This document shows, piece by piece, positions 40,601-63,270 of a stretch of 64,000 nucleotides of DNA (the stretch's first letter is position 1; each line of letters opens with the position of its first letter). This stretch comes from Antedon bifida (Eukaryota; Echinodermata; Crinoidea; Comatulida; Antedonidae), in assembly GCA_963402885.1 (NCBI GenBank), contig OY727096.1, positions 32,345,820 through 32,409,819 of the forward strand, given 5' to 3'. Below the pieces are notes generated by a model. The model made no database searches. It was not told the DNA's origin and worked only from the letters and a program-made list of their open reading frames with translations. Made by a program: the position numbers and the translations under genes.

Positions 40601-41138
40601 GTATTTTCAAATTCCAAATCTGGTTAAATTTCTTTCCACAATGTTCACATTCATATGGTGTGTCTCCTGTGTGTACTCTCAAATGTTTTTTTAAATCGTC
40701 ATTCTGGTTGAATTTCTTTCCACAATGTTCACATTCATATGGTGTCTCTACTGTGTGTACTCTCAAATGTTTTTTCAGATCGTCATTCTGTTTGAATTTC
40801 TTCCCACAATGTTCACATTCATATGGTGTCTCTCCTGTGTACTCTCCCAAATGTCTGCTCCACCCACAATTTAAATCTAAACCAAGTCTGACAATGTTGA
40901 CTTGACATCGAAGAAGTTTAAACTCCTGATGAGGTTGAACGTTCAACTTGAAATCATTATCATCATAAAGGAGTACTTCACCTTTAGTCTGCATATCCAT
41001 TCCCAAATGTATCTTCAAATCATTTAAATGAAGTTTATCTCCACAGTGTTCACATTTGTATAAATTCATTATTCTCAGATGGCATAAGTACTGTAAGCCT
41101 GAATTGCCCCGGCTGTCCACTACTGGGTATTGGTACAC
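37308..41138 (-). CDS. ZNF-A: C2H2 zinc-finger array fused in frame to a LINE ORF2 tail
   Basis: The open frame is 1276 codons. Residues 1-105 are a non-finger head with one degenerate finger ([20 protein letters not shown]) and an acidic patch. Residues about 106-1150 hold about 37 tandem C2H2 fingers of 28 aa (pattern [10 protein letters not shown], helix, HLRVHT, linker EETP/GETP). One is a degenerate finger lacking the first cysteine ([20 protein letters not shown]). The last about 125 residues come from an inserted LINE. Long arrays of this kind bind DNA in the nucleus; no KRAB, SCAN, BTB or other effector domain is seen. An acceptor (TTTTTTTCAG at about 41150) just upstream suggests 5' exons, so the true start may lie farther up. 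It is almost identical to ZNF-B from about 37,820 to its 5' end. Confidence 0.85.
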
Positions 41139-41565
41139 TTTCTAGAAGTCACTGAAAAAAAGAAATAACCCACCATTCACAAAAAATACAATGAAATTAA
41201 AATTGTGTACAAAAATAAAATAATGTAATAAATATCATTTGAAAGTACAGTTTGAATTTCTTCATACATTACTGTAGGTTTCATTTTAAAGTATTCGGCT
41301 GATATAAAGAGGTTTTTAAAAATATATGTTATAATTTTGTCGATTTTACAGTATACTACAGGCAACAGTCAAATTTCAGTCTCAACCGTTTGGCTTTTTT
41401 TCTTAAAATGTTCACAGTTGAATTGTTCTATGGTTTGTTAACTTAAACTATTGTTTGATTACTGTTCACTGACAGACAGGACCTAACCCAGTGTAAACGG
41501 AACTAGATGATGGGTGTGGTATGGTAGTCTGCGGTAGAATTATATAATAATGCGGATTTTTTTTT
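41139..41565. other. 5' flank of ZNF-A
   Basis: It holds a polypyrimidine tract and AG (minus strand, about 41150-41165) that look like an acceptor for upstream exons, which I could not find. The same sequence is repeated upstream of ZNF-B (52741-53165) and, diverged, upstream of ZNF-C (61611-61760). Confidence 0.4.
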
Positions 41566-43560
41566 ATTTTTTATTTTTTTTATTTAATCGGTATAAAAAG
41601 ACTCAAAATACAACTCATAGTTGAAATGAAGAGCTTACAAATGAAAATGATAATTCACATAAAACAAAGTTAAACGAAGAAAAAACACATTAAGGCCTAT
41701 GATACAGTAATAATTACTGTATAATTCATTAAACTTAAAATTACTATAAAAATTGCTTAAAGATCAAAAGATAAGATTAATAATTACAAATTCTTAAATA
41801 TTTACAATTTTAAAAAATAGAGACTAATATTATTGATCACATTATTTTTATACACCAATAATATAATGTATAATTCATTTAAACTAAAAAATTACTATAA
41901 AAATTGCACAAAGATCAAATTCAAAGGATGATATTAATAATTACAAATTCATATATATTTACAAATTTAAAAAATTGAATCTTAATCACATTCATACTCT
42001 CCGAAATGTCTTTAAAGGTTAATTGTCAAATCTATTCATTATTTAAGAGTCCAATAACACTTGGAATTGTTGAGGCAGCAAGTCTTTTAGTCCGACATCG
42101 TGGCACATCGAACTTATTAACTTTACGCAAACACCTTGTCGGCTTTTCTTTTTCAGGGATCCATTCCTTAAAACGATCCGACTTTAGCAGCCCCTTTCCA
42201 AAGTTATAAAGAAGAACCTGACGTCTATGCTGCAATGTCTTTAACTTGAGGGTTTCAAGTGATTTTGCGTAACTAACATAGTTTTGATATCCAATAATAA
42301 GTTTTACAACACGCTTTTGGATGAATTCAAGTTGATCACTCTGTTTATTGGTGATCGAGCTATGCCAAAGAGGACTGGCATACTCAAGTAAAGGACGAAT
42401 GTATGTTGTAAAAGTGAAAACCAGGTCATCCTTTGGGGCTCCAAAACGCTTCAGAATGTATAGCATATATAGACGACGTGATGCCCTGGAAACGACTTCT
42501 TTAATCTGCATGTCCCACTTGAGGTCTCTTTGCAGATGCACTCCAAAAAGTTTCACACTCTGGGATTCTTCGAGTATAACACCATCCATTTGTAACGGCT
42601 CAAATTGGGGAACATTACGCAAAAAATGAACACGCATCACTTGAAACTTTACAGGATTTGGTGTTGCATCATTCTCCACACACCAACTGGAAAGAGCATC
42701 AAGGTTGCTTTGAATCGAACTATCTTCAGGTCTCTGTACTGAAATCACCTCACCAATCGTCAGGTCATCAACAAACTTCCATCTATCAGGTACATTGTTG
42801 AGCAAATCATTAACCATGATAGTAAATAGGATTGGGCCTAATTTAGTACCCTGAGGCACTCCGCACGAAATTGGTTCTGGCGCTGAGACTGAACCGCCCA
42901 ACCGCACACACTGATTTCTTTGCGAGAGGAAGCTACACACCGTTGGAATGAGAGAGGGCATGATATTAAGACCAATTACCGGTAATTTGTCAATCAGAAT
43001 TGAATGATTGACCCGGTCAAAGGCTTTACTAAAGTCTATGGCACAAATAGTACCATACATTCCTGAGCTATCTAATCCTGACAGAAGCCTATTACAGAGT
43101 TGTACAAGGTAATGAGTCGGTGATGAACCCTTCGCATTTCCAAACTGTTGGGAATCCATAAGAGGTCTGAAATCAGTAGCTATCCAATCAGAAAGGAAGC
43201 TCTCAAAAATTCTATCAAAAACAGACGTGATGGATATAGGCCTATATTCATTAGGTGTAGAAGCCTTTGGCTTTTTGGGTACAGGAGTAATGATGGCATT
43301 CTTCCAGATAGATGGGAAATTATTATCCTTGAGGCAACAATTCAATATTTTAGCGAGAGGTTGGGCAAGCTCTAAGGCAAATTCCTTAATTAATCGGAGA
43401 GGTATATCACGAGGATGCCTTGATTTATTCACATTAATGCCCTTTAATATTTTAAAAACTTGCCCAGGATGTGTATATGTAAATACCAATTTGCTATTTT
43501 GGTTGGTGGTCGTGACTGAATTATTAAAAAATTGTGACTATTGGGTACAGGAGGCATATT
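41566..43560 (-). mobile_element. 5'-truncated non-LTR retrotransposon, copy A
   Basis: The minus-strand reading frame 43489-42032 encodes about 485 aa of reverse transcriptase with its C-terminal region. It is followed by an AT-rich 3'UTR ending in an A-rich tail (T-rich on plus, 41566-41590). Endonuclease and ORF1 are absent. Confidence 0.8.
42032..43489 (-). CDS. reverse transcriptase (jockey/CR1-like), truncated at N-terminus, copy A
   Basis: The order of motifs is that of a non-LTR reverse transcriptase. ITPVPKKPKASTPNEYRPIS is motif 1-2 and CAIDFSKAFDRVNHSIL is motif A with its catalytic aspartate. CGVPQGTKLGPILFTIMVND is motif B and KFVDDLTIGE is motif C with FVDD. Then come YIRPLLEYASPLWHS and a basic C-terminal tail. 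The three catalytic aspartates are present, but the endonuclease domain is missing and the first ATG is internal to the original ORF, so the element cannot move by itself. Relative to copy B it carries two extra codons (KLPVIGLN versus KLIGLN) caused by a TA-flanked 6-bp insertion at 42979-42984. Confidence 0.88.
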   Translation of the reverse strand: MVFTYTHPGQVFKILKGINVNKSRHPRDIPLRLIKEFALELAQPLAKILNCCLKDNNFPSIWKNAIITPVPKKPKASTPNEYRPISITSVFDRIFESFLSDWIATDFRPLMDSQQFGNAKGSSPTHYLVQLCNRLLSGLDSSGMYGTICAIDFSKAFDRVNHSILIDKLPVIGLNIMPSLIPTVCSFLSQRNQCVRLGGSVSAPEPISCGVPQGTKLGPILFTIMVNDLLNNVPDRWKFVDDLTIGEVISVQRPEDSSIQSNLDALSSWCVENDATPNPVKFQVMRVHFLRNVPQFEPLQMDGVILEESQSVKLFGVHLQRDLKWDMQIKEVVSRASRRLYMLYILKRFGAPKDDLVFTFTTYIRPLLEYASPLWHSSITNKQSDQLEFIQKRVVKLIIGYQNYVSYAKSLETLKLKTLQHRRQVLLYNFGKGLLKSDRFKEWIPEKEKPTRCLRKVNKFDVPRCRTKRLAASTIPSVIGLLNNE

Positions 43561-45541
43561 GAATGCTATATATTAATGAGTTTAAATTTGATAATTGTAA
43601 ACATGATGTGTTGTGGTGTTCTTGTGGGTGGGTAATGTTTGTGAGTTGTTCTGAGATGGGGATTTCTTAGAAGACCAAGTCACATTGATGTCTAGCTATT
43701 AATCAGTATTGGTAAACAAGCTTTAATTGTTATGGATATACTAGTAGCATTGAGAGGCAGTAACGTTGGCAAAAAAAAAATGCTTCTTCTCATTTTTATT
43801 TTGTGTAAAATAAAAACAGAGACATAATTATAGGTAAATGTTACATACTATAGTGTAAAATACAGTACATAAATAAGGTGCATGGGATCGGCATATCTTC
43901 TTCATGTGTTTGAGTATTTCTGTATCAGATATTTGATATTGAATGATCAGTGATAGACATTTCCCCTCCCTGCAACGTGGCTCTGTATGACATGTCAGAC
44001 AAATACAGGGAGTAAAGACAGTGGCGGATCCAGGGGGCGTACCCTCCGCACGCTCCCCTATAAATCTGGAGAAAAAAAATTATCCTATCATAAGGGAAAA
44101 AAATGGGAAAGAGTAAAGTACTTTCACTTTTGGTTAAAACACATTCAGCGCCGTGCTAATTTACTTTTTATTAGAGGTCTCCATTGCCGTTGCTGTCTGT
44201 AAATTTCTAAGAGTTGCGAAATGAATAGCCTATTTTCACCTGAAACGCATTTTGGTCCCTGGATGTAACATGATATTGACGCGTGTATCAATCGTACCCA
44301 TACTCGGGGCACGAACGATTCGTACAAAGGACACCGCCATACAACCGCGTAGGCCTACCCATTGTTTATATCGCTGGCAGTCAGCAAGCATAAATAAAAG
44401 TGTATATACGTCAAAATTGGCACGGCGTGGTTACCTACAGATCATCATTATAGAGGATAATAATGTTATTAATAATATAGTACACTAACTGTGGTAACTG
44501 TGTACTGTGGTAGTATACATTAGTAACCGATTTTTTTTCCTAGGCCACCCGCTGTATCAATACCTATTATATTTATATATTTGATTTCTTCAACAAATTG
44601 ATGTAAATAAATATTGATCTATAATAAGCATTAAATTTGCTTTTTTTCGGGGCTTCCCCTAGATGTACGTTCGAATTGAACTTGAACGCAACGCAATCAA
44701 AACTAAATACTGAGTGAATGAAATCGGCAACAAAATGTTATATCGTCCTGTAATTAGTCACTGTGTTTATTGGAGGGAAGAGTATGATCGTTTTGCTCAT
44801 TGGTAGTATGCTACATATGAGTGTCTTTTCCTGCAAATTAGAGGTGCCATTTATCATCAATTTTATGTGCGAGAGTACCATTTTTGCCGGCCATCTGGGG
44901 CGTCATTTAATGACATGTTCTGTCGACGGCCCTGGACAGGCACCTTTTTCCGCCATGTACGTGAAAACGCTGACTTGCGCGAAACGCCCTGTTGTGATGC
45001 TTTTACTCAAAATAAGCCTATTGGGAATATGTCACTCTTTAAAAGGCTAGTACCTCAGTTTTCATATTTAAAATATCAATTTTTAATACATTTATTTAAC
45101 GTGAGAGTGCCATTTCCGACCATCTAGAGGTGTTACATTTTCAAAATCGCTTCAAATCAAAAGAAAAAAGAAGCAGAGACTGAGGTTCGCTTGATGACTG
45201 AAATTGTGAAAAGGATCATAGAAACGGAGCAAGCTGTGGGAGGTCTAATAATTATCCGTGCTTGGTATGGAAAGCTTTTACTATCTACAGTTGCGCCTAT
45301 ATGACTTTTGAGACATTTTTCAACCATGAAATATGTTTAATATACCAATTAAAAAACAATATAAAAAGCAAAAAAAAAACAGTCCTATGATTCACCGTCA
45401 AATACAATCATTTCGTTATCATCGTCGTCATCGTATCTGGCATTAAATTATCATACAGTACTACAGTAACTCTTAATCACGTATTTGTATTGTTTATTTC
45501 TGTTCCTTTGACGTTCAGTTAATAAACCTACATTCTTAATA

Positions 45542-45721
45542 CAGTATAGTAGTCTATCTCGAAAAGAAGCCCATACTATCTTGAAATAAAGCCCAGGGGG
45601 CTTCATTTCGAGATGGGCTTCTTTTCGAGAGTACTTTTGCAAACTGTAGAGTGGGGCTTCATTTCGAGATGGGCTTCTTTTCGAGGTTTAAGCCCATGGG
45701 TTTCTTTTCGAGGTTTTACGG
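45542..45721. mobile_element. fold-back repeat with CTCGAAAAGAAGCCC arms, copy A
   Basis: TCTCGAAAAGAAGCCC and GGGCTTCTTTTCGAGA face each other several times. The right end reads GGTTTTACGG followed by TA and the left end follows TA, consistent with a TA-target element whose termini are CAG/CCG. A copy lies at 57157-57336. Confidence 0.6.
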
Positions 45722-45989
45722 TATACTAATAGAAATATAAGATAAATATTTTGGCACATATGGCGTTTCATACGTGTACTGCCTGAGCTTGTAAACTGTA
45801 TTTCAGAAAAAAATCGAAACGTCGACTGGTGGCCTTGGAGTAAGACTAACTAGTCTACACTACCCATGCAAAATAATAACTCATGCATCGGAAGGTCGTT
45901 TCATACGTTTCGAGAGGGAGAATTAAGTCTTACTTTTTGGTTCAAAGATAACAACATAGGCCTACGATTGATATATTTATCATTTCAAT

Positions 45990-46260
45990 TCAATTCAATT
46001 CAAGAAACATTTATTGACCATAATTTAGCATAACATTAAGAATGGTTAGCATATCTATATTATAAGTGAGAGAGTTTGTACGTCTGTCTGTCTGTCGGGA
46101 GATACTGGAGTCGGGTGTTCTGTACTGAGAAGGCTTTAAACTAATTTTGAAACCCGCCCTGGGGCGGGTATAATTGCTAGTAATATATATAGTCGAGAGA
46201 CTACAAAAGGCCCGATGGGCCTGTCGCTGTAGTCCCTCTTTACATTATACAAGTATACAT
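45990..46260 (-). mobile_element. LINE 3' end (TCAATTCAATTC tail), interrupted by a Helitron
   Basis: On minus, GACTACAGCGACAGGCCCAT and GGGCCTTTTGTAGTCTCTCG form a hairpin-bearing 3'UTR, and the element ends at about 45988 with GAATTGAATTGAATTGA repeats. A 127-bp Helitron splits it. Duplicated at about 57605-57875. Confidence 0.55.
46054..46180 (+). mobile_element. short non-autonomous Helitron, copy A
   Basis: It begins TCTATATTATAAGTGAGAGA and ends with the hairpin CCCGCCCTGGGGCGGG, eight bases of spacer and CTAG, followed by T. It is inserted between A (46053) and T (46181). TC start, 3' hairpin, CTRR end and A/T insertion are the four hallmarks of Helitrons. At 127 bp it is close to minimal and encodes nothing. 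Confidence 0.9.
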
Positions 46261-47319
46261 ACAAATACAAATAATAATACAACACTTAGGCTAATCTTAA
46301 TTAGCCGTTACGTACATTATATCAGTATAAAAAAAAAATACAGTATCTTAATTAATTAGGTAATTTTAATACCTAAATAATACCTAAAACCATACAACTA
46401 AAATAATACAAGCTAACATACCTGCAGTTGTGTGTGGTCAATAATAATAAACAACTCCCTGTGATCAAACATTGAGACGTAATGTAATGCCGACTGATGA
46501 TGATTAACGGGGTATCCTGATATCTGATTGGATTGTCCATGGATCTTCTATTAGACTATTGTCTATTATTAAATGGGCGGGAGATTGGCATGGAGTAAAG
46601 CATTGTTTGCGATCCACACCTGGTAAAGTAAGTATTTTGGCCAAAGACAATACGTCACTGTGTGGATCAAAGTTGGTGCTTGCCGCCACCTAGGCGCTTT
46701 GTTCCTAAAGGGGTCGGAAACACACGGTCAGTCTGGTTCCAAAGATAGTGTATTCAGTATTTTAGAATCAGTGGCACCATGGATTAAACAATAGAAGGAT
46801 ATGCATCGACGGTGTCATCAAACGATTTTACAACGCGCTTGCCTATACTAAAGCACTGCTGCCAATCAAACAAACACGCTCATTGAACTCCGTGTCTCTA
46901 ACCGCGGCCTCTGTAAAACGCTGCGAATCAACTGTTACATTTTTTGAGACCAAAACGTAACCATGTGGAAATCGTATGCGCAGTCTGAATGTTCTATTGA
47001 CATGTCTGCGTCGATGATTAATTCTGTTTTAGTTTCATCACAATCGGACTACGAAAAGTTCACTTTCTTACGACTGGTAATTTTAAGTAGTTGGTAATAT
47101 TAATAAAATATGCAATTTTTATATTTGAATTATCATTATTTGCCTGCCATCTTCTGGCATTAAAAATTGCGTTAATCTATAGAATATTAAATTATGCATT
47201 TGACCATGTATGTTGTTAGCGTGGCCGGTGTTCACACATAAAACAATCGTGTTTTTAATATATGGCTAAGCAGTGGTTTCTTCATAAATCTCCTTAATTA
47301 TCGATGTGATTATATTTAA

Positions 47320-47535
47320 ATTGTAGTGCCTGGTGATTGGCTAGTGGTTATGTCATCCACATCACATCCAATCACCGGGCCTAATTGAATGAAAACAGCG
47401 ATCCCTGATTGGCTGGCTATGTATAGTTGTGATACGTTACCTAGCGGTCGTTTTGAAAAGTACACGCAGGGCAAACTTAATCACGAACAAACGAAGTACC
47501 TATTATTATTCACACAAGAAGTAAGACAACGGTGA
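47320..47535 (+). promoter_or_regulatory. CCAAT-box promoter-like block with a possible non-coding first exon
   Basis: Three CCAAT-type boxes occur within about 90 bp: GTGATTGGCTAG at about 47332, CATCCAATCACC at about 47367 and CTGATTGGCTGG at about 47407. They are followed by a possible exon ending AAGACAACG|GTGAGTATA at 47531. No coding exon is seen downstream on plus, so a transcript from here would be non-coding or antisense to the finger genes. Confidence 0.35.
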
Positions 47536-48499
47536 GTATATAGATCATGATTAAATGTTGTATCTACTACACTTAAGATTAGCAGTATCAATGTCGGCAA
47601 ATCATATGCTTTACTAGTAAGCCTAGGCCTAGTATTCTTGCTGATTTTGTAATTTTACATGTAGGCTGAGACAAAAAATAGTTATTGTCTCAGATGTAGG
47701 GCTACTACAGGTCATAAAATGCTACTTTAATGTCATAAAAACATTAGCGAAGATCAATCGCGGCAGAAACCTATACTAATTACAATTATAGCAAGTGAGC
47801 GCACATAGTCGTTACGTCACTGATTATACTGTTCAAATATGTATGAATACAAACGATTTGTAGGCTATGTGGTAGCAGTAAAGTTTCTATGAAGGACCAG
47901 CCAACAAGGTTAAATGTCGTTGCACATGTGCAGTAAACAATATATTAGGCACGCGACCGTTTCGTTGTTACCATGCGGTTAATTAAACTGTAACATTGTG
48001 GGCGGTCCGCAATCTGTCGGCGAGAGTCAAGGAACCCTTGATCTCACGTCGATGCATATCCTTCTATTCTTTAATCCATGGTGGCACACACCTTTCGCTA
48101 GCATGAAAAACACGGCCGATCATCAAGATTTAATGAAGAATTAAATAATAAAATACATACCAACACTACTATTTATTTAAATCAAGTTTAAAGTTAAATA
48201 ATAGATTAATTAATATATTTATTTCCTCCAAAAGGACATAAGATTTAAAAAAAAACACACAGAAAGTAGGGCAGACAAATAAGGAATATTAAGTTCCTAT
48301 TACACACTTAAGTTAATAACTTTATCTAAAGTTGTACTGTCTGTCTGCTTCTGACAAAATAACTCATCACAGATTAATTGCTCCACTGATATTAAATTAA
48401 AATATTGTACTTGTAGTTTTTTGATAATTTTCCTATTTCTGTTTTGTGTGTGTGGGGGTGGGTGTGTGTATTTTAACAAGTTTTCAGTTCACATTCATA

Positions 48500-48775
48500 G
48501 TCTCTCTCCGGTGTGTATTCTCAAATGTGCTCTAAAATTCTCACATTCTTTATTTTTTTCTGACAATGTTCACATTCATGTGGTTTCTCTTCTGGGTGTA
48601 ATCTCAAATGTTTTTTCAAATCATCATTCTTCTTAAAATTCTTCCCACAATATTCACATTCATATGGTGTCTCTCCGGTGTGTATTCTCAAATGTGCTCT
48701 AAAATTCTCACATTCTTTATTTTTTTCTGACAATGTTCACATTCATATGGTTTCTCTTCTGGGTGTAATCTCAAA
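48500..48775 (-). pseudogene. truncated zinc-finger remnants downstream of ZNF-B
   Basis: The minus strand reads fingers ([28 protein letters not shown]) broken by frameshifts. A block of about 100 bp (from TCCGGTGTGTATTCTCAAAT to TTCTGGGTGTAATCTCAAAT) occurs twice, at about 48508 and 48674. It lies 135 bp beyond the ZNF-B stop, so it is a lost extension of that array or a separate dead gene. Confidence 0.7.
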
Positions 48776-48909
48776 TAATTTCTTTTACCAATACAGTACT
48801 GCAGAATTTATTATTTTTTTCCCACGATGCCAAACATCGGATGAATGCTGGCAACGTTTCCCATATCGGTTGATCCAAAGGGTTTTCGTCGATTACGTTA
48901 GTTAGCGCC

Positions 48910-51900
48910 TCAGTCTAAATGTTTTTTCAAATGTCTCTTCAGACTGCTTCTATATTTTATTTTCTTTCCACAATATTCACATTCATATGGTGTCTCTTCT
49001 TTATGAATTCTTAAATGTCTTTTTAAATGCACATTCTGTTTGAATTTCTTTCCACAATGTTCACATTCATATGGTGACTCTCCTGTGTGCACTCTCAAAT
49101 GTCTTTTTAAATGCACATTCTGTTTGAATTTCTTTCCACAATGTTCACATTCATATGGTGTCTCTCCTGTGTGTACTCTTGAGTGTTTGTTCAGACTACT
49201 ACGATATTTAAATTTCTTTCCACAATGTTCACATTCATATGGTGTCTCTCCTGTGTGTACTCTCGAGTGTCTGTTCACATCACCACGATATTTAAATTTC
49301 TTCCCACAATGTTCACATCCATATGGTGTCTCTCCTGTGTGTACTCTCAAATGCTTTTTCAGATCGTCATTCCGTTTGAATTTCTTCCAACAATGTTCAC
49401 ATTCGTATGGTGTCTCTTCTGCGTGTACTCTCAAATGTTTTTTCAGATCGTCATTCCGTTTGAATTTCTTCCCACAATGTTCACATTCATATGGTGTCTC
49501 TCCTGTGTGTATTCTCAAATGTTTTTTCCAATTACCACAATCATTAAACCTCTTTCCACAATGTTTACATTCATATGGTCTCTCTCCTGTGTGTATTCTT
49601 AAATGTCTTTTCCAATTACTACCACCATTAAACCTCTTTCCACAATGTTTACATTCATATGGTCTCTCTCCTGTGTGTATTCTTAAATGTCTTTTCCAAT
49701 TACCACCACCATTAAACCTCTTTCCACAATGTTTACATTCATATTGTGTCTTTTTTGTGTGTATTCTCATATGATTTTTCAAATTCCCAATCTGGTTGAA
49801 CTTTTTTCTACAATGTTCACATTCATATGGTTTCTCTCCTGTGTGTATTCTCAAATGATTTTTCAAATTCCCAATCATGTTGAACTTCTTTCCACAATGT
49901 TCACATTCATATGGTTTCTCTCCTATGTGTATTCTTAAATGTCTTTTTAAGTTCCCAATCTGGTTGAACTTCTTTCCACAATGTTCACATTCATATGGTT
50001 TCTCTCCTGTGTGTATTCTCAAATGTTTTTTCAGATCGTCATTCCGTTTGAATTTCTTCCCACAATGTTCACATTCATATGGTGTCTCTTTTGTGTGTAT
50101 TCTCAAATGTTTTTTCAGATCGCCATTCTGTTTGAATTTCTTCCCACAATGTTCACATTCATATGGTGTGTCTCCTGTGTGTATTCTCAAATGTTTTTTC
50201 AGATCGTCATTCCCTTTGAATTTCTTCCCACAATGTTCACATTCATATGGTCTCTCTCCTGTGTGTACTCTCAAATGTCTTCTCCAAGTACTACCATGTT
50301 TAAACTTCTTTCCACAATGTTCACATTCATATGGTGTATCTTCTGTGTGTACTCTCAAATGTTTTTTCAAATCATTATTCTGGTTGAATTTCTTTCCACA
50401 ATGTTCACATTCATATGGTGTATCTTCTGTGTGTACTCTCAAATGTTTTTTCAGATCGTCATTCCGTTTGAATTTCTTCCCACAATGTTCACATTCATAT
50501 AGTCTCTCTCCTGGGTGATCTCCCATATGCGTTTGTAATCGCCCCTTCTGTCCTAATTTTTTCCCACATTTATTTGGTGCCTCTCCTGTGTGCATTCTCG
50601 AGTGTCTGTTCAGAGCACTACAACTTTTAAATTTCTTTCCACAATGTTCACATTCATATGGTGTCTCACCTTTGTGAATTCTTAAATGTCTTCTCAGATT
50701 ATATTTATATTTGAATTTCTTACCACAATGTTCACATTCATATGGTGTCTCTTCTGTGTGTACTCTCAAATGTTTTTTTAAATGCACATTCTGTTTGAAT
50801 TTCTTTCCACAATGTTCACATTCATATGGTGTCTCTCCTGTGTGTACTCTCGAGTGTCTGTTCACATCACTTCGATATTTAAATTTCTTTCCACAATGTT
50901 CACATTCATATGGTGTCTCTTCTGTGTGTACTCTCGAGTGTCTGTTCACATCACTTCGATATTTAAATTTCCTTCCACGATGTTCACATTCATATGGTGA
51001 CTCTCCTGTGTGCACTCTCAAATGTGTTTTTAAATGCACATTCTGTTTGAATTTCTTTCCACAATGTTCACATTCATATGGTGTCTCTCCTGTGTGTACT
51101 CTCGAGTGTCTGTTCACATCACTTCGATATTTAAATTTCTTTCCACAATGTTCACATTCATATGGTGTCTCTTCTGTGTGTACTCTCGAGTGTCTGTTCA
51201 CATCACTTCGATATTTAAATTTCTTTCCACAATGTTCACATTCATATGGTGTCTCTCCTGTGTGTACTCTCAAATGTTTCTTCAGATCGTCATTCTGGTT
51301 GAATTTCTTTCCACAATGTTCACATTCATATAGTGTCTCTTTTGTGTGTACTCTCAAATGTTTTTTCAGATCATCATTCTGGTTGAATTTCTTTCCACAA
51401 TGTTCACATTCATTTGGTGTCTCTTCTGTGTGTACTCTCAAATGTTTCCTCAGATCGTCATTCTGGTTGAATTTCTTTCCACAATGTTCACATTCATATG
51501 GTGTCTCTTCTGCGTGTACTCTCAAATGTTTTTTCAGATCGTCATTCTGGTTGAATTTCTTTCCACAATGTTCACATTCGTATGGTGTCTCTTCTGCGTG
51601 TACTCTCAAATGTTTTTTCAGATCGTCATTCTGGTTGAATTTCTTTCCACAATGTTCACATTCATATGGTGTCTCTTCTGTGTGTATTCTCAAAATATGT
51701 TTTTTCAGATCGTCATTCCGTTTGAATTTCTTCCCACAATGTTCACATTCATATGGTGTCTCTTTTGTGTGTACTCTCAAATGTTTTTTCAGATCGCCAT
51801 TCTGTTTGAATTTATTTCCACAATGTTCACATTCATATGGTTTCTCTCCTGTGTGTATTCTCAAATGTTTTTTCAGATCGTCTTTCCGTTTGAATTTCTT

Positions 51901-52740
51901 CCCACAATGTTCACATTCATATAGTCTCTCTCCTGTGTGTATTCTCAAATGTTTTTTCAGATCGTCATTCCGTTTGAATTTCTTCCAACAATGTTCACAT
52001 TCATATGGTCTCTCTCCTGAGTGTACTCTCAAATGTCTTCTCCAAGCACTACCATGTTTAAACTTCTTTCCACAATGTTCACATTCATATGGTGTCTCTT
52101 CTGTGTGTATTCTCAAATGTTTTTTCAGATCGTCATTCCGTTTGAATTTCTTCCCACAATGTTCACATTCATATGGCGACTCTCCTGTGTGTATTCTCAA
52201 ATGTATTTTCAAATTCCAAATCTGGTTAAATTTCTTTCCACAATGTTCACATTCATATGGTGTGTCTCCTGTGTGTACTCTCAAATGTTTTTTTAAATCG
52301 TCATTCTGGTTGAATTTCTTTCCACAATGTTCACATTCATATGGTGTCTCTACTGTGTGTACTCTCAAATGTTTTTTCAGATCGTCATTCTGTTTGAATT
52401 TCTTCCCACAATGTTCACATTCATATGGTGTCTCTCCTGTGTACTCTCCCAAATGTCTGCTCCACCCACAATTTAAATCTAAACCAAGTCTGACAATGTT
52501 GACTTGACATCGAAGAAGTTTAAACTCCTGATGAGGTTGAACGTTCAACTTGAAATCATTATCATCATAAAGGAGTACTTCACCTTTAGTCTGCATATCC
52601 ATTCCCAAATGTATCTTCAAATCATTTAAATGAAGTTTATCTCCACAGTGTTCACATTTGTATAAATTCATTATTCTCAGATGGCATAAGTACTGTAAGC
52701 CTGAATTGCCCCGGCTGTCCACTACTGGGTATTGGTACAC
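48910..52740 (-). CDS. ZNF-B: chimeric C2H2 zinc-finger protein, about 41 fingers
   Basis: The open frame is 1276 codons with a natural stop after [14 protein letters not shown]. Residues 1-105 form the same head as ZNF-A, followed by about 41 fingers. From the 5' end to about 49350 it matches ZNF-A; from about 49335 to the stop it matches ZNF-C ([20 protein letters not shown], then [12 protein letters not shown] and [10 protein letters not shown]). It has one finger more than ZNF-A ([18 protein letters not shown]) and one extra codon that changes a finger to His-X4-His (KKHILRIH). Dominant recognition helices are [16 protein letters not shown] and KYRSDVNR. Linkers are mostly HTEETP or HTGETP instead of the canonical TGEKP. 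Probably a nuclear DNA-binding protein without an obvious effector domain; 5' exons are likely, as for ZNF-A. Confidence 0.88.
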
Positions 52741-53165
52741 TTTCTAGAAGTCACTGAAAAAAAGAAATAACCCACCATTCACAAAAAATACAATGAAATT
52801 AAAATTGTGTACAAAAATAAAATAATGTAATAAATATCATTTGAAAGTACAGTTTGAATTTCTTCATACATTACTGTAGGTTTCATTTTAAAGTATTCGG
52901 CTGATATAAAGAGGTTTTTAAAAATATATGTTATAATTTTGTCGATTTTACAGTATACTACAGGCAACAGTCAAATTTCAGTCTCAACCGTTTGGCTTTT
53001 TTTCTTAAAATGTTCACAGTTGAATTGTTCTATGGTTTGTTAACTGAAACTATTGTTTGATTACTGTTCACTGACAGACAGGACCTAACCCAGTGTAAAC
53101 GGAACTAGATGATGGGTGTGGTATGGTAGTCTGCGGTAGAATTATATAATAATGCGGATTTTTTT
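52741..53165. other. 5' flank of ZNF-B
   Basis: Nearly identical to 41139-41565, with the same acceptor-like tract on minus just above the ORF start. No upstream exon was recognised. Confidence 0.4.
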
Positions 53166-53634
53166 TTATTTTTTATTTTTTTTATTTAATCGGTATAAAA
53201 AGACTCAAAATACAACTCATAGTTGAAATGAAGAGCTTACAAATGAAAATGATAATTCACATAAAACAAAGTTAAACGAAGAAAAAACACATTAAGGCCT
53301 ATGATACAGTAATAATTACTGTATAATTCATTAAACTTAAAATTACTATAAAAATTGCTTAAAGATCAAAAGATAAGATTAATAATTACAAATTCTTAAA
53401 TATTTACAATTTTAAAAAATAGAGACTAATATTATTGATCACATTATTTTTATACACCAATAATATATATGTATAATTCATTTAAACTAAAAAATTACTA
53501 TAAAAATTGCACAAAGATCAAATTCAAAGGATGATATTAATAATTACAAATTCATATATATTTACAAATTTAAAAAATTGAATCTTAATCACATTCATAC
53601 TCTCCGAAATGTCTTTAAAGGTTAATTGTCAAAT

Positions 53635-55086
53635 CTATTCATTATTTAAGAGTCCAATAACACTTGGAATTGTTGAGGCAGCAAGTCTTTTAGTCCGACA
53701 TCGTGGCACATCGAACTTATTAACTTTACGCAAACACCTTGTCGGCTTTTCTTTTTCAGGGATCCATTCCTTAAAACGATCCGACTTTAGCAGCCCCTTT
53801 CCAAAGTTATAAAGAAGAACCTGACGTCTATGCTGCAATGTCTTTAACTTGAGGGTTTCAAGTGATTTTGCGTAACTAACATAGTTTTGATATCCAATAA
53901 TAAGTTTTACAACACGCTTTTGGATGAATTCAAGTTGATCACTCTGTTTATTGGTGATCGAGCTATGCCAAAGAGGACTGGCATACTCAAGTAAAGGACG
54001 AATGTATGTTGTAAAAGTGAAAACCAGGTCATCCTTTGGGGCTCCAAAACGCTTCAGAATGTATAGCATATATAGACGACGTGATGCCCTGGAAACGACT
54101 TCTTTAATCTGCATGTCCCACTTGAGGTCTCTTTGCAGATGCACTCCAAAAAGTTTCACACTCTGGGATTCTTCGAGTATAACACCATCCATTTGTAACG
54201 GCTCAAATTGGGGAACATTACGCAAAAAATGAACACGCATCACTTGAAACTTTACAGGATTTGGTGTTGCATCATTCTCCACACACCAACTGGAAAGAGC
54301 ATCAAGGTTGCTTTGAATCGAACTATCTTCAGGTCTCTGTACTGAAATCACCTCACCAATCGTCAGGTCATCAACAAACTTCCATCTATCAGGTACATTG
54401 TTGAGCAAATCATTAACCATGATAGTAAATAGGATTGGGCCTAATTTAGTACCCTGAGGCACTCCGCACGAAATTGGTTCTGGCGCTGAGACTGAACCGC
54501 CCAACCGCACACACTGATTTCTTTGCGAGAGGAAGCTACACACCGTTGGAATGAGAGAGGGCATGATATTAAGACCAATTAATTTGTCAATCAGAATTGA
54601 ATGATTGACCCGGTCAAAGGCTTTACTAAAGTCTATGGCACAAATAGTACCATACATTTCTGAGCTATCTAATCCTGACAGAAGCCTATTACAGAGTTGT
54701 ACAAGGTAATGAGTCGGTGATGAACCCTTCGCATTTCCAAACTGTTGGGAATCCATAAGAGGTCTGAAATCAGTAGCTATCCAATCAGAAAGGAAGCTCT
54801 CAAAAATTCTACCAAAAACAGGCGTGATGGATATAGGCCTATATTCATTAGGTGTAGAAGCCTTTGGCTTTTTGGGTACAGGAGTAATGATGGCATTCTT
54901 CCAGATAGATGGGAAATTATTATCCTTGAGGCAACAATTCAATATTTTAGCGAGAGGTTGGGCAAGCTCTAAGGCAAATTCCTTAATTAATCGGAGAGGT
55001 ATATCACGAGGATGCCTTGATTTATTCACATTAATGCCCTTTAATATTTTAAAAACTTGCCCAGGATGTGTATATGTAAATACCAA
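53635..55086 (-). CDS. reverse transcriptase (jockey/CR1-like), truncated at N-terminus, copy B
   Basis: 483 codons, the tandem-duplicate of the frame at 42032-43489 with the same catalytic motifs (AIDFSKAFD, FVDD). It differs by P for S and G for D near residues 88-92 (TPVFGRIFE), E for G before MYG, and lacks the two-codon insertion. Because the copy arose by segmental duplication, this is not a second retrotransposition. The element spans about 53166-55157 including its 3'UTR. Confidence 0.88.
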   Translation of the reverse strand: MVFTYTHPGQVFKILKGINVNKSRHPRDIPLRLIKEFALELAQPLAKILNCCLKDNNFPSIWKNAIITPVPKKPKASTPNEYRPISITPVFGRIFESFLSDWIATDFRPLMDSQQFGNAKGSSPTHYLVQLCNRLLSGLDSSEMYGTICAIDFSKAFDRVNHSILIDKLIGLNIMPSLIPTVCSFLSQRNQCVRLGGSVSAPEPISCGVPQGTKLGPILFTIMVNDLLNNVPDRWKFVDDLTIGEVISVQRPEDSSIQSNLDALSSWCVENDATPNPVKFQVMRVHFLRNVPQFEPLQMDGVILEESQSVKLFGVHLQRDLKWDMQIKEVVSRASRRLYMLYILKRFGAPKDDLVFTFTTYIRPLLEYASPLWHSSITNKQSDQLEFIQKRVVKLIIGYQNYVSYAKSLETLKLKTLQHRRQVLLYNFGKGLLKSDRFKEWIPEKEKPTRCLRKVNKFDVPRCRTKRLAASTIPSVIGLLNNE

Positions 55087-55157
55087 TTTGCTATTTTGGT
55101 TGGTGGTCGTGACTGAATTATTAAAAAATTGTGACTATTGGGTACAGGAGGCATATT

Positions 55158-58100
55158 GAATGCTATATATTAATGAGTTTAAATTTGATAATTGTAAACA
55201 TGATGTGTTGTGGTGTTCTTGTGGGTGGGTACCGTAATGTTTGTGAGTTGTTCTGAGATGGGGATTTCTTATAAGACCAAGTCACATTGATGTCTAGCTA
55301 TTAATCAGTATTGGTAAACAAGCTTTAATTGTGATGGATATACTAGTAGGATTGAGAGGCAGTAACGTTGGCCAAAAAAAATGCTTCCTCTCATTTTTAT
55401 TTTGTGTAAAATAAAAACAGAGACATAATTATAGGTAAATGTTACATACTATAGTGTAAAATACAGTACATAAATAAGGTGCATGGGATCGGCATATCTT
55501 CTTCATGTTTTTGAGTATTTCTGTATCGGATATTTGATATTGAATGATCAGTGATAGGACATTTCCCCTCTCTGCAACGTGGCTCTGTATGACATGTCAG
55601 ACAAATACAGGGAGTAAAGACAGTGGCGGATCCAGGGGGGCGTACCCTCCGCAAGCCCCCCCCCCCCCCTATAAATCTGGAGAAAAAAAAATTATCCTAT
55701 CATAAGGGAAAAGAAATGGGAAAAAAGCGTAAAAAAAAGTAAAGTACTTTCACTTTTGGTTAAAACACATTCAGCGCCGTGCTAATTTACTTTTTATTAG
55801 AGGTCTCCATTGCCGTTGCTGTCTGTAAATTTCTAAGAGTTGCGAAATGAATAGCCTATTTTCACCTGAAACGCATTTTGGTCCCTGGATGTAACATGAT
55901 ATTGACGCGTGTATCAATCGTACCCATACTCGGGGCACGAACGATTCGTACAAAGGACACCGCCATACAACCGCGTAGGCCTACCCATTGTTTATATCGC
56001 TGGCAGTCAGCAACCATAAATAAAAGTGTATATACGTCAACATTGGCACGGCGTGGTTACCTACAGATCATCATTATAGAGGATAATAATTTTAATAATA
56101 ATATAGTACACTAACTGTGGTAACTGTGTACTGTGGTAGTATACATTAGCAACCGATTTTTTTCCTAGGCCACCCACTGTATCAATACCTATTATATTTA
56201 TATATTTGATTTCTTCAACAAATTGATGTAAATAAATATTGATCTATAATAAGCATTAAATTTGCGCTTTTTTTCGGGGCTTCCCCTAATTGAACTTGAA
56301 CGCAATGCAATCAAAACTAAATACTGAGTGAATCAAATCGGCAACAAAATGTTATATCGTCCTGTAATTAGTCACGTGTGTTTATTGGAGGGAAGAGTAT
56401 GATCGTTTTGCTCATTGCTAGCATGCTACATATGAGTGTCTTTTCCTGCAAATTAGAGGTGCCATTTATCATCAATTTTATGTGCGAGAGTACCATTTTT
56501 TCCGGCCATCTGGGGCGTCATTTAATGACATGTTCTGTCGACGGCCCTGGACAGGCACCTTTTTCCGCCATGTACGTGAAAACGCTGACTTGCGCGAAAC
56601 GCCCTGTTGTGATGCTTTTACTCAAAATAAGCCTATTGGGAATATGTCACTCTTTAAAAGGCTAGTACCTCAGTTTTCATATTTAAAATATCAATTTTTA
56701 ATACATTTATTTAACGTGAGAGTGCCATTTCCGACCATCTAGAGGTGTTACATTTTCAAAATCGCTTCAAATCAAAAGAAAAAAGAAGCAGAGACTGAGG
56801 TTCGCTTGATGACTGAAATTGTGAAAAGGATCATAGAAACGGAGCAAGCTGTGGGAGGTCTAATAATTATCCGTGCTTGGTATGGAAAGCTTTTACTATC
56901 TACAGTTGCGCCTATATGACTTTTGAGACATTTTTCAACCATGAAATATGTTTAATATACCAATTAAAAAACAATATAAAAAGCAAAAAAAAAACAGTCC
57001 TATGATTCACCGTCAAATACAATCATTTCGTTATCATCGTCGTCATCGTATCTGGCATTAAATTATCATACAGTACTACAGTAACTCTTAATCACGTATT
57101 TGTATTGTTTATTTCTGTTCCTTTGACGTTCAGTTAATAAACCTACATTCTTAATACAGTATAGTAGTCTATCTCGAAAAGAAGCCCATACTATCTTGAA
57201 ATAAAGCCCAGGGGGCTTCATTTCGAGATGGGCTTCTTTTCGAGAGTACTTTTGCAAACTGTAGAGTGGGGCTTCATTTCGAGATGGGCTTCTTTTCGAG
57301 GTTTAAGCCCATGGGTTTCTTTTCGAGGTTTTACGGTATACTAATAGAAATATAAGATAAATATTTTGGCACATATGGCGTTTCATACGTGTACTGCCTG
57401 AGCTTGTAAACTGTATTTCAGAAAAAAATCGAAACGTCGACTGGTGGCCTTGGAGTAAGACTAACTAGTCTACACTACCCATGCAAAATAATAACTCATG
57501 CATCGGAAGGTCGTTTCATACGTTTCGAGAGGGAGAATTAAGTCTTACTTTTTGGTTCAAAGATAACAACATAGGCCTACGATTGATATATTTATCATTT
57601 CAATTCAATTCAATTCAAGAAACATTTATTGACCATAATTTAGCATAACATTAAGAATGGTTAGCATATCTATATTATAAGTGAGAGAGTTTGTACGTCT
57701 GTCTGTCTGTCGGGAGATACTGGAGTCGGGTGTTCTGTACTGAGAAGGCTTTAAACTAATTTTGAAACCCGCCCTGGGGCGGGTATAATTGCTAGTAATA
57801 TATATAGTCGAGAGACTACAAAAGGCCCGATGGGCCTGTCGCTGTAGTCCCTCTTTACATTATACAAGTATACATACAAATACAAATAATAATACAACAC
57901 TTAGGCTAATCTTAATTAGCCGTTACGTACATTATATCAGTATAAAAAAAAAATACAGTATCTTAATTAATTAGGTAATTTTAATACCTAAATAATACCT
58001 AAAACCATACAACTAAAATAATACAAGCTAACATACCTGCAGTTGTGTGTGGTCAATAATAATAAACAACTCCCTGTGATCAAACATTGAGACGTAATGT

Positions 58101-60114
58101 AATGCCGACTGATGATGATTAACGGGGTATCCTGATATCTGATTGGATTGTCCATGGATCTTCTATTAGACTATTGTCTATTATTAAATGGGCGGGAGAT
58201 TGGCATGGAGTAAAGCATTGTTTGCGATCCACACCTGGTAAAGTAAGTATTTTGGCCAAAGACAATACGTCACTGTGTGGATCAAAGTTGGTGCTTGCCG
58301 CCACCTAGGCGCTTTGTTCCTAAAGGGGTCGGAAACACACGGTCAGTCTGGTTCCAAAGATAGTGTATTCAGTATTTTAGAATCAGTGGCACCATGGATT
58401 AAACAATAGAAGGATATGCATCGACGGTGTCATCAAACGATTTTACAACGCGCTTGCCTATACTAAAGCACTGCTGCCAATCAAACAAACACGCTCATTG
58501 AACTCCGTGTCTCTAACCGCGGCCTCTGTAAAACGCTGCGAATCAACTGTTACATTTTTTGAGACCAAAACGTAACCATGTGGAAATCGTATGCGCAGTC
58601 TGAATGTTCTATTGACATGTCTGCGTCGATGATTAATTCTGTTTTAGTTTCATCACAATCGGACTACGAAAAGTTCACTTTCTTACGACTGGTAATTTTA
58701 AGTAGTTGGTAATATTAATAAAATATGCAATTTTTATATTTGAATTATCATTATTTGCCTGCCATCTTCTGGCATTAAAAATTGCGTTAATCTATAGAAT
58801 ATTAAATTATGCATTTGACCATGTATGTTGTTAGCGTGGCCGGTGTTCACACATAAAACAATCGTGTTTTTAATATATGGCTAAGCAGTGGTTTCTTCAT
58901 AAATCTCCTTAATTATCGATGTGATTATATTTAAATTGTAGTGCCTGGTGATTGGCTAGTGGTTATGTCATCCACATCACATCCAATCACCGGGCCTAAT
59001 TGAATGAAAACAGCGATCCCTGATTGGCTGGCTATGTATAGTTGTGATACGTTACCTAGCGGTCGTTTTGAAAAGTACACGCAGGGCAAACTTAATCACG
59101 AACAAACGAAGTACCTATTATTATTCACACAAGAAGTAAGACAACGGTGAGTATATAGATCATGATTAAATGTTGTATCTACTACACTTAAGATTAGCAG
59201 TATCAATGTCGGCAAATCATATGCTTTACTAGTAAGCCTAGGCCTAGTATTCTTGCTGATTTTGTAATTTTACATGTAGGCTGAGACAAAAAATAGTTAT
59301 TGTCTCAGATGTAGGGCTACTACAGGTCATAAAATGCTACTTTAATGTCATAAAAACATTAGCGAAGATCAATCGCGGCAGAAACCTATACTAATTACAA
59401 TTATAGCAAGTGAGCGCACATAGTCGTTACGTCACTGATTATACTGTTCAAATATGTATGAATACAAACGATTTGTAGGCTATGTGGTAGCAGTAAAGTT
59501 TCTATGAAGGACCAGCCAACAAGGTTAAATGTCGTTGCACATGTGCAGTAAACAATATATTAGGCACGCGACCGTTTCGTTGTTACCATGCGGTTAATTA
59601 AACTGTAACATTGTGGGCGGTCCGCAATCTGTCGGCGAGAGTCAAGGAACCCTTGATCTCACGTCGATGCATATCCTTCTATTCTTTAATCCATGGTGGC
59701 ACACACCTTTCGCTAGCATGAAAAACACGGCCGATCATCAAGATTTAATGAAGAATTAAATAATAAAATACATACCAACACTACTATTTATTTAAATCAA
59801 GTTTAAAGTTAAATAATAGATTAATTAATATATTTATTTCCTCCAAAAGGACATAAGATTTTAAAAAAAACACACAGAAAGTAGGGCAGACAAATAAGGA
59901 ATATTAAGTTCCTATTACACACTTAAGTTAATAACTTTATCTAAAGTTGTACTGTCTGTCTGCTTCTGACAAAATAACTCATCACAGATTAATTGCTCCA
60001 CTGATATTAAATTAAAATATTGTACTTGTAGTTTTTTGATAATTTTCCTATTTCTGTTTTGTGTGTGTGGGGGTGGGTGTGTGTATTTTAACAAGTTTTC
60101 AGTTCACATTCATA
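55158..60114. other. duplicated spacer, copy B
   Basis: Copy of 43561-48499 with scattered indels: a 5-bp TA-flanked insertion (55232-55236), a longer C run in the GGATCCAGGGG repeat (about 55650-55670) and a deletion near 56287 relative to 44659-44678. It contains the second fold-back repeat (57157-57336), the LINE tail with Helitron, and the CCAAT-type block at about 58935-59150. Confidence 0.6.
57669..57795 (+). mobile_element. short non-autonomous Helitron, copy B
   Basis: Identical in layout to 46054-46180: TC start, CCCGCCCTGGGGCGGG hairpin, CTAG end, A/T flanks. It was copied with the segmental duplication, not by transposition, since the flanks match too. Confidence 0.9.
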
Positions 60115-60390
60115 GTCTCTCTCCGGTGTGTATTCTCAAATGTGCTCTAAAATTCTCACATTCTTTATTTTTTTCTGACAATGTTCACATTCATGTGGTT
60201 TCTCTTCTGGGTGTAATCTCAAATGTTTTTTCAAATCATCATTCTTCTTAAAATTCTTCCCACAATATTCACATTCATATGGTGTCTCTCCGGTGTGTAT
60301 TCTCAAATGTGCTCTAAAATTCTCACATTCTTTATTTTTTTCTGACAATGTTCACATTCATATGGTTTCTCTTCTGGGTGTAATCTCAAA
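60115..60390 (-). pseudogene. truncated zinc-finger remnants downstream of ZNF-C
   Basis: Copy of 48500-48775 with the same frameshifts and the same internal duplication, 135 bp beyond the ZNF-C stop. Confidence 0.7.
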
Positions 60391-60524
60391 TAATTTCTTT
60401 TACCAATACAGTACTGCAGAATTTATTATTTTTTTCCCACGATGCCAAACATCGGATGAATGCTGGCAACGTTTCCCATATCGGTTGATCCAAAGGGTTT
60501 TCGTCGATTACGTTAGTTAGCGCC

Positions 60525-61610
60525 TCAGTCTAAATGTTTTTTCAAATGTCTCTTCAGACTGCTTCTATATTTTATTTTCTTTCCACAATATTCACATTCA
60601 TATGGTGTCTCTTCTTTATGAATTCTTAAATGTCTTTTTAAATGCACATTCTGTTTGAATTTCTTTCCACAATGTTCACATTCATATGGTGACTCTCCTG
60701 TGTGCACTCTCAAATGTCTTTTTAAATGCACATTCTGTTTGAATTTCTTTCCACAATGTTCACATTCATATGGTGTCTCTCCTGTGTGTACTCTTGAGTG
60801 TTTGTTCAGACTACTACGATATTTAAATTTCTTTCCACAATGTTCACATTCATAAGGTTTCTCTACTGGATACACTCTCATATGCGTTTTTAATGGCCCG
60901 GAATGTGCTCTCAGTCCAGTTCTATATCTTAATTTCTTCCCACATTGTTCACATTCATATGGCATCTCTCCTGTATGGATTCTACGATATCTTCTTAACC
61001 CACTTGCATATTTAAATTTCTCTCCACAATCTTCACATTCATATGGTGCCTCTAATGTGTGTATTCTTAAATGTCTTCTCAGATTCCCTTTCTGGTTGAA
61101 TTTCTTTCCACAATGTTCACATTCATATGGTGTCTCTCCTGTGTGTACTCTCGAGTGTCTGTTCACATCACCACGATATTTAAATTTCTTCCCACAATGT
61201 TCACATCCATATGGTGTCTCTCCTGTGTGTACTCTCAAATGTTTTTTCAGATCATTATTCTGGTTGAATTTCTTTCCACAATGTTCACATTCATTTGGTG
61301 TATCTTCTGTGTGTACTCTCAAATGTTTCTTCAGATCGTCATTCTGTTTGAATTTCTTCCCACAATGTTCACATTCATATGGTGTCTCTTCTGTGTGTAC
61401 TCTCAAATATCTGCTCCACCCACAATTTAAATCTAAATCAAGTCTGACAATGTTGACTTGACATCGAAGAAGTTTAAACTCCTGATGAGGTTGAACGTTG
61501 AACTTGAAATCATTATCATCATTGAGTAGTTCATCCTTAATCCCCAAATGTATCTTCAAATCATTTAAATGAAATTTATCTCCACAATGTTCACATTTGT
61601 ATAAATTCAT
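60525..61610 (-). CDS. ZNF-C: shorter C2H2 zinc-finger protein, about 10 fingers
   Basis: 361 codons from ATG at 61610, same head as ZNF-A/B but diverged ([20 protein letters not shown], lacking the MDMQTKGEV insertion). About ten fingers follow, the last five shared with ZNF-B. It has a 273-bp block absent from ZNF-B holding [20 protein letters not shown], a [13 protein letters not shown] finger and an irregular unit ([20 protein letters not shown]) in which two helices seem fused. An acceptor (TTTTTTTTCAG at about 61670) upstream suggests 5' exons and a start farther up. The gene supplied the 3' half of ZNF-B. Confidence 0.85.
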
Positions 61611-63270
61611 TATTCTCAGATGGCATAACTACTGTAGGTCTGACCTGTCCAACACTGGGTATTAGTACACTGAAAAAAAATAAATAACTCACTATTCATA
61701 AAAAATACAATGAAATTAAAATTGTGTACAAAAGTATAATGTAAATACAGTATAAATGTCACCGTCGGAACTCGTCCAATGGGTAATAATCTAATAGAAG
61801 CGACAAATATGTGGGAGAAGCGAATAAGACGTTTAATAAAAGTTCCTAGTTCAAACACTGGACAGACAGAAAAGGAGACTATAAATGAATGCAACTATAT
61901 ATTGTTTAGTTTAGAATTTAGTTTCAATGTCACTATTATTATTATTTTACAACATTTGCTATTATCACAAATCAATGGCAATTATAAGTTAAACAAAATG
62001 ACAAAAGACGGAATATAAGTAAGTTTAACAATATTAAACAGATGTCAGATATTAGACGAAATCAATAAATCGATTAACTTGATTCAACCAAAGCTATTTA
62101 AAATACTATTAATATTTAGGGCTATTATAATTTAATCAATATTATTAAGAAAACCCATCAGAAGTTTAAATGTAAATTAATTAAACAAACACAGCCCCTC
62201 TACAGTAGTGAGGTTAAAAGCCGCTCAGACACCATTAGAAAATGAAACTGTAAACAAAACAACACAAATGGTTAAGGAAACATCTAAGATAATTGTTTAG
62301 ATAACATAGTTTAACGTTTTAACACACATTTTGAACTAATAACTAATTAAACAAAAACTACTAATGTATAATAACTATAGATATCATAATTAAATGAACT
62401 AATAAACTAACTAAATAATACATACTATTGAAAAATACTAGTGACCCAAAACGATAGAGTTACACATTAAAAGGACGAAATTTATTGCTTCAAGGTCACC
62501 TCCTATAATCTTAAACACAGATATGTCCTTGAACTATTCACCCTACATACTCTACAGTGCAGTAACATTCTAGCATTACAGTGTACTATGTACTAATACA
62601 TTTCCTGTTTGTTAACAATGGTTATTATATTTTTCATATTGTAATTATGGAGGAAAAAATGTTGTTGTTGTCATGTTGTACGTAAGGTGGGTGGGGGGGG
62701 GGGGGGGAACGGTGGGGGTTGGTGTGGGGTTGATTAGTGATTGGTTTTGTAGATTAAGAGTAATCTTGTACTGTATTTAAATTATATGTTGTACTTGTTA
62801 TTTTTGGAGAAGGGGAGGGAGGGGAATGAATGGGTTTTATTACATGTTACCGTATGTAGTTTAAGTAAGATTACCTATGTTTTTCTGTCTATTTTGTGCT
62901 TTCTTCTTATATATTTTTTGTTGGACGCACCTTCAAAATGTGAAGTGTGCCACTGTTACAAAAGTGAAGTTCCGAAATAAATTATTATTATTATTATACG
63001 AAATTATACGTACAATGAACACAATAATGAGGTCAAAGAGACATACAGTATATACCTATTATATATCGTCAAACTATATTAATTATCATAACTAAAACAC
63101 ATCAATTAAAGGTCCGATATATTATTACATCGCCTATCATGATAAATTAAACAATACAATAACAAATATTATTATTTACCAAAGTAAATTAAACAACAAT
63201 ACAGCAAATACATACGTTTTTATGACAAATAAACATGAGACTAGGAATGATGAGTGATATCGGAGGACTA
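61611..63270. other. right flank of the zinc-finger cluster
   Basis: No coding exon was recognised. It contains the 5' flank of ZNF-C, AT-rich spacer, a G run of more than ten bases near 62694-62708 and a LINE-like 3' end (about 62780-62998) with GTGTGCCACTGTTACAAAAG, TTCCGAAATAAA and an ATT-repeat tail. Confidence 0.45.

Follow-up and report, generated by a model that had tools for sequence, protein, structure and literature searches.

The minus strand of a 64,000-nucleotide stretch of the genome of the crinoid Antedon bifida (GenBank assembly GCA_963402885.1, contig OY727096.1, positions 32,345,820 to 32,409,819), referred to here as the window and numbered from its first letter, carries three C2H2 zinc-finger genes, ZNF-A, ZNF-B and ZNF-C, of which the middle one, ZNF-B, joins the beginning of ZNF-A to the end of ZNF-C (Table 1). 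In each of the three, C-x2-C-x12-H-x3/4-H units follow one another within a single open frame, i.e., they are C2H2 poly-zinc-finger genes, and the 84-bp finger unit makes up most of the largest 20 of at least 60 repeat families. The ZNF-C frame matches the Pfam families zf-C2H2 (2.1e-57) and zf-H2C2_2 (1.3e-74), and the closest to it by sequence among 40 solved chains is Zinc finger protein 568 (1.1e-91), a KRAB zinc-finger protein. Neither KRAB nor PR/SET is found among the best 25 of 30 Pfam families for the ZNF-C frame, the only one of the three that was scanned and one whose 5′ exons were not searched for. At the exon start, ZNF-C shows 83.6% identity to ZNF-A and to ZNF-B (385-column alignment, gaps included). 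The data throughout are one assembled sequence of one individual, from which the open frames are read directly.

The composite nature of ZNF-B was followed along its length by tiling it in 84-bp steps and finding the best ungapped match of each of the 47 tiles in ZNF-A (37115-41228, a range that excludes the stretch of ZNF-A below an inserted long interspersed nuclear element, LINE) and in ZNF-C (60520-61744); the topmost tile (52783-52866) was dropped because the ZNF-A range ended before its partner. Among the tiles from 49339 to 52782, 40 of 41 are nearer to ZNF-A and one is a tie, with 33 of the 41 free of mismatches to ZNF-A, and among those from 48919 to 49338 four of five are nearer to ZNF-C, again with one tie. 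Two sequence variants follow the same division: TTCCAACAATGTTCACATTC occurs at 37870 and 40381 in ZNF-A and at 49385 and 51983 in ZNF-B and nowhere in ZNF-C, and CACATCCATATGG is present only at 49314 in ZNF-B and 61202 in ZNF-C. An initial annotation of the window, made from the letters alone, had matched the 5′ part of ZNF-B to ZNF-A, the shared TTCCAACAATGTTCACATTC variant included, and this is borne out; its match of the 3′ part to ZNF-C also stands for the rare CACATCCATATGG variant, yet not for everything downstream, as the match to ZNF-C resumes only past a gap of 273 bp.

The change from one parent to the other is a single switch. An in-register comparison spanning 49195-49489 contains 29 sites at which ZNF-A and ZNF-C differ, the first at 49244 and the last at 49457, and at these ZNF-B is C-like 17 times and then A-like 12 times, with no interleaving and no site that matches neither parent. 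Under random order, the chance of so perfect a two-block arrangement of 17 and 12 sites is 1.9e-8, a figure to be read with the reservation that neighbouring sites are not independent. The C-like sites end at 49319 and the A-like sites begin at 49366, which brackets the switch within 46 bp; the one base private to ZNF-B in this interval is a substitution at 49354. The junction had been placed at about 49320-49352 in the initial annotation, which is the right location with a slightly too narrow width. The switch therefore lies inside sequence common to both parents, with a 46-bp identical block and 88.5% local identity between ZNF-A and ZNF-C over the surrounding 252 bp (a value exceeded at 11 of the 117 match centres examined), and in this register the two genes share a finger beginning NQKGN at 59 of 60 bases.

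A sharp change of this kind could also be left by gene conversion, i.e., by an old A-type middle copy whose 3′ end was overwritten by ZNF-C. Such conversion is described among paralogous finger genes in the cited part of one survey (PMC2604467), and three substitutions between ZNF-A and ZNF-B within 4 bp (38237, 38239 and 38240) resemble a small conversion tract. However, ZNF-B is identical to ZNF-C across 48248-49239, and the C-like identity runs past the stop codon of ZNF-B into the shared spacer without a second tract boundary; the absence of interleaving at all 29 sites, in agreement with the single switch point that had been annotated, argues the same way. With no downstream tract end, gene conversion is largely refuted, and we have set it aside as very improbable.

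The switch is situated in a roughly 11.5 kb direct repeat, in which 37693-49769 matches 49292-61405. The hybrid gene sits at the middle junction of this duplication, the outer ends of which lie in ZNF-A and in ZNF-C, and near-identity ceases at both of them. At the first, the 3′ part of ZNF-A (the remainder of its array, the LINE fragment and a further finger stretch) matches the 3′ part of ZNF-B only as ordinary finger similarity; at the second, above the array of ZNF-C, the similarity drops to 83.6% up to 61744, beyond which there is none except for a local minisatellite that matches itself (E up to 1e-6). When DNA is duplicated in tandem, the only junction that is new lies between the two copies, and the outer ends are left unchanged; ZNF-B holds that junction, and the arrangement reads as an exchange between ZNF-A and ZNF-C. 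The tandem duplication that the initial annotation had drawn around the junction is thus present in the assembled sequence, in units of about 11.5 kb, and the switch coincides with its one new junction.

The two units were compared by global alignment of 37820-49330 with 49335-61220, counting up to 49200 of the first unit; across 11,360 aligned bases there are 39 substitutions between them, in addition to 15 insertions or deletions. The spacer from 44901 to 49200 differs from its partner by one substitution in 4,300 aligned bases, and 41229-42949 by one in 1,721. This near-identity suggests that the event may be recent enough to be still polymorphic. Each unit also carries a reverse-transcriptase frame on the minus strand (42032-43537 and 53635-55134); the two differ by a 6-bp insertion or deletion and three substitutions, and the first, the one of the pair that was scanned, matches RVT_1 (1.1e-24). 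Beyond their stop codons, ZNF-B and ZNF-C are both followed by decayed finger remnants, at 48487-48776 and 60102-60391.

Table 1. Coordinates of the features described in the text (positions within the window)
Feature	Positions	Strand	Description
ZNF-A open frame	37308..41141	-	1277 amino acids stop to stop; 35 fingers by pattern
ZNF-B, chimera	48910..52743	-	single open frame, 1277 amino acids stop to stop; 40 fingers by pattern
ZNF-C open frame	60525..61628	-	367 amino acids, short; 8 fingers by pattern
Switch interval	49320..49365	-	46 bp identical in ZNF-A (37805-37850) and ZNF-C (61208-61253)
ZNF-A-derived 5′ part of ZNF-B	49366..52830	-	
3′ part of ZNF-B from ZNF-C, with the first stretch of the adjoining flank	48248..49319	-	
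Repeat unit 1 (outer limits)	37805..49365	.	5′ part of ZNF-A, spacer, C-derived 3′ part of ZNF-B
Repeat unit 2 (outer limits)	49320..61253	.	A-derived 5′ part of ZNF-B, spacer, 3′ part of ZNF-C
Divergent patch	43600..44900	.	26 of 39 substitutions and 11 of 15 insertions or deletions; partner begins at about 55197 in unit 2
Homology at second junction	49211..49239	-	29 nt of shared finger sequence; ZNF-B without 273 bp of ZNF-C
ZNF-C segment absent from ZNF-B	60855..61127	-	273 bp, 91 codons, 3.25 finger units, in frame
Extra finger of ZNF-B	51843..51926	-	84 bp without a ZNF-A counterpart there; nearest other stretch at 37730 in ZNF-A, 2 mismatches
Extra codon of ZNF-B	51694..51696	-	3-bp insertion relative to ZNF-A; gives one finger an H-x4-H spacing
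3′ fragment of a non-LTR (long terminal repeat) retrotransposon, a 5′-truncated LINE	37115..37680	-	within the finger beginning NQKGNLRR
ZNF-A array continuation beyond the LINE	36482..37114	-	stop after frame break; decayed finger below
Family-matched frames	10940..11986; 13174..14457; 21144..21569; 32321..32599	+; -; -; -	TEX33, ADP-ribosylglycohydrolase (two frames), mitochondrial carrier, MFS transporter

We consider it probable that an ectopic (non-allelic) homologous crossover between ZNF-A and ZNF-C, presumably older paralogous poly-zinc-finger genes lying in tandem, made both the tandem duplication and the hybrid gene. The 84-bp finger arrays of the two would have mispaired with their NQKGN fingers opposite each other, and the crossover would have been resolved within the 46 bp over which their finger and linker sequences are identical, giving the order ZNF-A, spacer, the new gene ZNF-B, a second copy of the spacer, and ZNF-C. 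ZNF-B would then consist of the exon start of ZNF-A and 34 of its 35 pattern fingers, followed by the last fingers and the stop codon of ZNF-C, with the frame kept because the exchange was in register with the 84-bp (28-codon) unit. Thereafter a second exchange, or slippage, across 29 bp of finger homology would have removed 273 bp from the C-derived part of ZNF-B (alternatively, this part may have been taken from a ZNF-C allele already without the segment), and a difference of one finger and one codon would have arisen between ZNF-A and ZNF-B. Unequal crossing-over was also the proposal of the initial annotation, and its chimera, single A/C switch and duplication junction are all found in the assembled sequence; the crossover itself and the order of events are what we infer from them, and a replication-based duplication or a false haplotype join could also have produced them.

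Several observations weigh against the crossover in this simple form. The parts of ZNF-B that came from its parents are not unaltered, as a single event would have left them: a 273-bp segment of ZNF-C is absent, and there are an extra finger and an extra codon relative to ZNF-A. The 46-bp block is not the longest identity available, as among 178 exact matches of at least 25 nt between ZNF-A and ZNF-C (37690-41228 against 60525-61744) 16 are longer, the longest being 123 nt, and one is equal in length; the idea that the break occurred at the longest A/C homology was rejected on this count. Moreover, the divergence between the repeat units is uneven, with 26 of the substitutions in one patch of 1,286 of the 11,360 aligned bases (Fisher p 3.7e-16, a few of these substitutions adjoining insertions or deletions and so depending on gap placement), which is unexpected for one duplication followed by even mutation.

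The missing segment is seen as a second junction in the array. ZNF-B tracks ZNF-C at an offset of +11888 until 49211 is reached, and an offset of +11615 holds for 49239 and everything below it, with an overlap of 29 nt. Of ten tiles over the 273-bp stretch and its edges, five still have 19-34 mismatches of 84 at their best match in 36400-53000, and for this reason a loss from ZNF-B, or from the participating ZNF-C allele, is more likely than a gain in ZNF-C from its neighbours. Together with the extra finger and codon, this absence requires further events or pre-existing allelic differences. The claim of the initial annotation that the new finger combination was created in one step is accordingly not supported, as at least one further array rearrangement is needed unless the alleles already differed, although this weighs against the one step and not against exchange as such.

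The second rearrangement is some 80-155 bp away from the switch, a proximity that may be met with in complex replication-based events, and it brings in the possibility that the tandem duplication arose by template switching or break-induced replication through the finger homology, without a reciprocal crossover. The same single junction would be expected from such a process, and the identical block at the switch is short. However, no inserted bases are found at either junction, the only irregularity being the private substitution at 49354, and both junctions link homologous finger parts, as homologous exchange predicts; a replication-based origin therefore appears quite improbable to us.

The divergent patch bears on a different explanation, namely that two haplotypes, each carrying only ZNF-A and ZNF-C, were placed end to end in the assembly and joined within the finger arrays, in which case ZNF-B would be unreal and the 273-bp and 84-bp differences, as well as the patch, would be allelic. 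Near-identical units with a 1.3 kb patch at 2% difference (26/1,286) are what allelic haplotypes can show, and finger arrays are hard to assemble. On the other hand, the units are truly distinct, by the substitutions and indels counted above, so that the second unit is not a mere reuse of the reads of the first, and a false join would have used the 46 bp of identity, with 88.5% around it, despite exact matches of up to 123 nt. The open frame of ZNF-B is weak evidence here, since any in-register join keeps the frame. We regard a false haplotype join as unlikely, if the most serious of the competitors. Patchy divergence of this sort could be caused by exchange between haplotypes, by later conversion or by the assembly of haplotypes, and the crossover between ZNF-A and ZNF-C remains the explanation that we favor.

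The fingers themselves vary as they do in DNA-reading arrays. The ratio of nonsynonymous to synonymous differences, pN/pS, is 1.18 at the contact positions -1, 2, 3 and 6 (0.98-1.46, about 5-95% of 100 bootstraps) and 0.21 in the finger framework (0.18-0.26); it was calculated from 40 distinct finger sequences out of 82, and as these are related by recent copying it shows a constrained framework and contacts that are free or selected to change, and does not amount to a formal test of positive selection. Such a pattern would be in keeping with recognition of DNA. C2H2 arrays read about three bases per finger, and ZNF-B would on this basis retain the recognition series of ZNF-A, in the form of 34 of its 35 pattern fingers with one extra finger between them, and end in five fingers of ZNF-C with the contact letters YGDR, YSSK, QVHR, QVHR and YSSR. 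If expressed and functional, the predicted protein would bind DNA through a long array of fingers that joins the series of ZNF-A to these five.

The terminus that ZNF-B acquired may be of consequence, given the state of ZNF-A. The LINE fragment in ZNF-A, which we take to be CR1/L2-like, has an A-rich tail and a short flanking repeat, AAGACA, whose first A's are indistinguishable from the tail. The open frame of ZNF-A continues in frame into the LINE and the finger array resumes at about 37114 beyond it; the 3′ end of ZNF-A is thus broken, whereas ZNF-B has the end of ZNF-C. By eye, we take the in-frame tail to resemble the end of a LINE reverse-transcriptase frame; the tail frame (37308-37700) gave no Pfam match, and no second copy of the LINE at 37115-37680 was found within the window. 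A 10-bp unit, CGCAGTGGTG, is repeated about three times on the plus strand at 37635-37667, near the 5′ end of the fragment. The crossover might then have been a gene rescue, in which the LINE-hit and frame-decayed array of ZNF-A gained an intact terminus from ZNF-C in the form of ZNF-B, an idea that we put forward as possible but rather doubtful and that presupposes that the LINE came first. If true, recombination inside coding repeats would have circumvented transposon damage in a gene family credited with opposing transposons.

The rest of the window holds frames matching TEX33, ADP-ribosylglycohydrolase, mitochondrial carrier and MFS transporter families, which are probably ordinary neighbouring animal genes; a sixth frame that was scanned (28682-29128) had no family match, and whole-window scans with Rfam (gathering threshold) and for tRNA genes returned no matches. 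The palindromic octamer TAGGCCTA occurs 28 times in the window, as against 0.41 expected from shuffles, with four of the 28 being second copies within the duplicated unit; the genomes of echinoderms or their relatives often contain this motif. A 16-bp unit, GTCCCACTTATCCAGG, forms two separate arrays at 330-496 and 5279-5567.

If real, ZNF-B represents a clean, apparently recent and base-resolved gain of a new finger series, with the breakpoint narrowed to 46 bp, both parents still adjacent to the hybrid and another rearrangement of the array about 80-155 bp off. Fresh cases of this kind would let the rates and the homology needs of ectopic exchange between coding repeats be measured in individuals.

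A known array of this type is the zinc-finger minisatellite of PRDM9, which is likewise built of 84-bp coding repeats. PRDM9 resembles the present arrays in that its finger units are in frame, evolve in concert and vary at the contact positions, and unequal crossing over was invoked for its ruminant copies, according to the cited part of that study (PMC5351255). Unlike in PRDM9, the exchange here was between two different genes and duplicated the DNA between them; no PR/SET match is seen for ZNF-C among the 25 Pfam families mentioned above. Another likeness is offered by the tandem poly-zinc-finger clusters of vertebrates (KRAB zinc-finger genes and their relatives), where, in the passages cited, paralogues frequently gain or lose whole fingers, presumably through recombination, with some conversion as well (PMC2604467); no KRAB match is seen for ZNF-C among those same 25 families. 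Excerpts from other studies regard it as likely that KRAB zinc-finger genes duplicate through unequal crossing over, through conversion or in other ways (PMC5363842) and describe growth of the family through repeated tandem duplication (PMC2865497). Across animals, zinc-finger expansions were surveyed as co-evolving with transposable elements, with many-finger frames like the present ones, some of them less studied, as in zebrafish, octopus, rice weevil and sea urchin (PMC10547256); unlike here, single chimera-forming events are not traced in the best 12 of 24 places taken from that survey.

The event at the Antedon locus is of a known kind, with a mechanism that is textbook for poly-zinc-finger genes, and its merits are its sharpness and apparent recency. 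Fusion genes made from tandem paralogues by unequal crossing over are familiar from haemoglobin Lepore and anti-Lepore and from the opsins. As in those cases, a hybrid stands at the duplication junction between two parents, and the duplication product resembles anti-Lepore. In contrast to them, the breakpoint here lies in an internal coding repeat, so that many registers of exchange would keep the frame.
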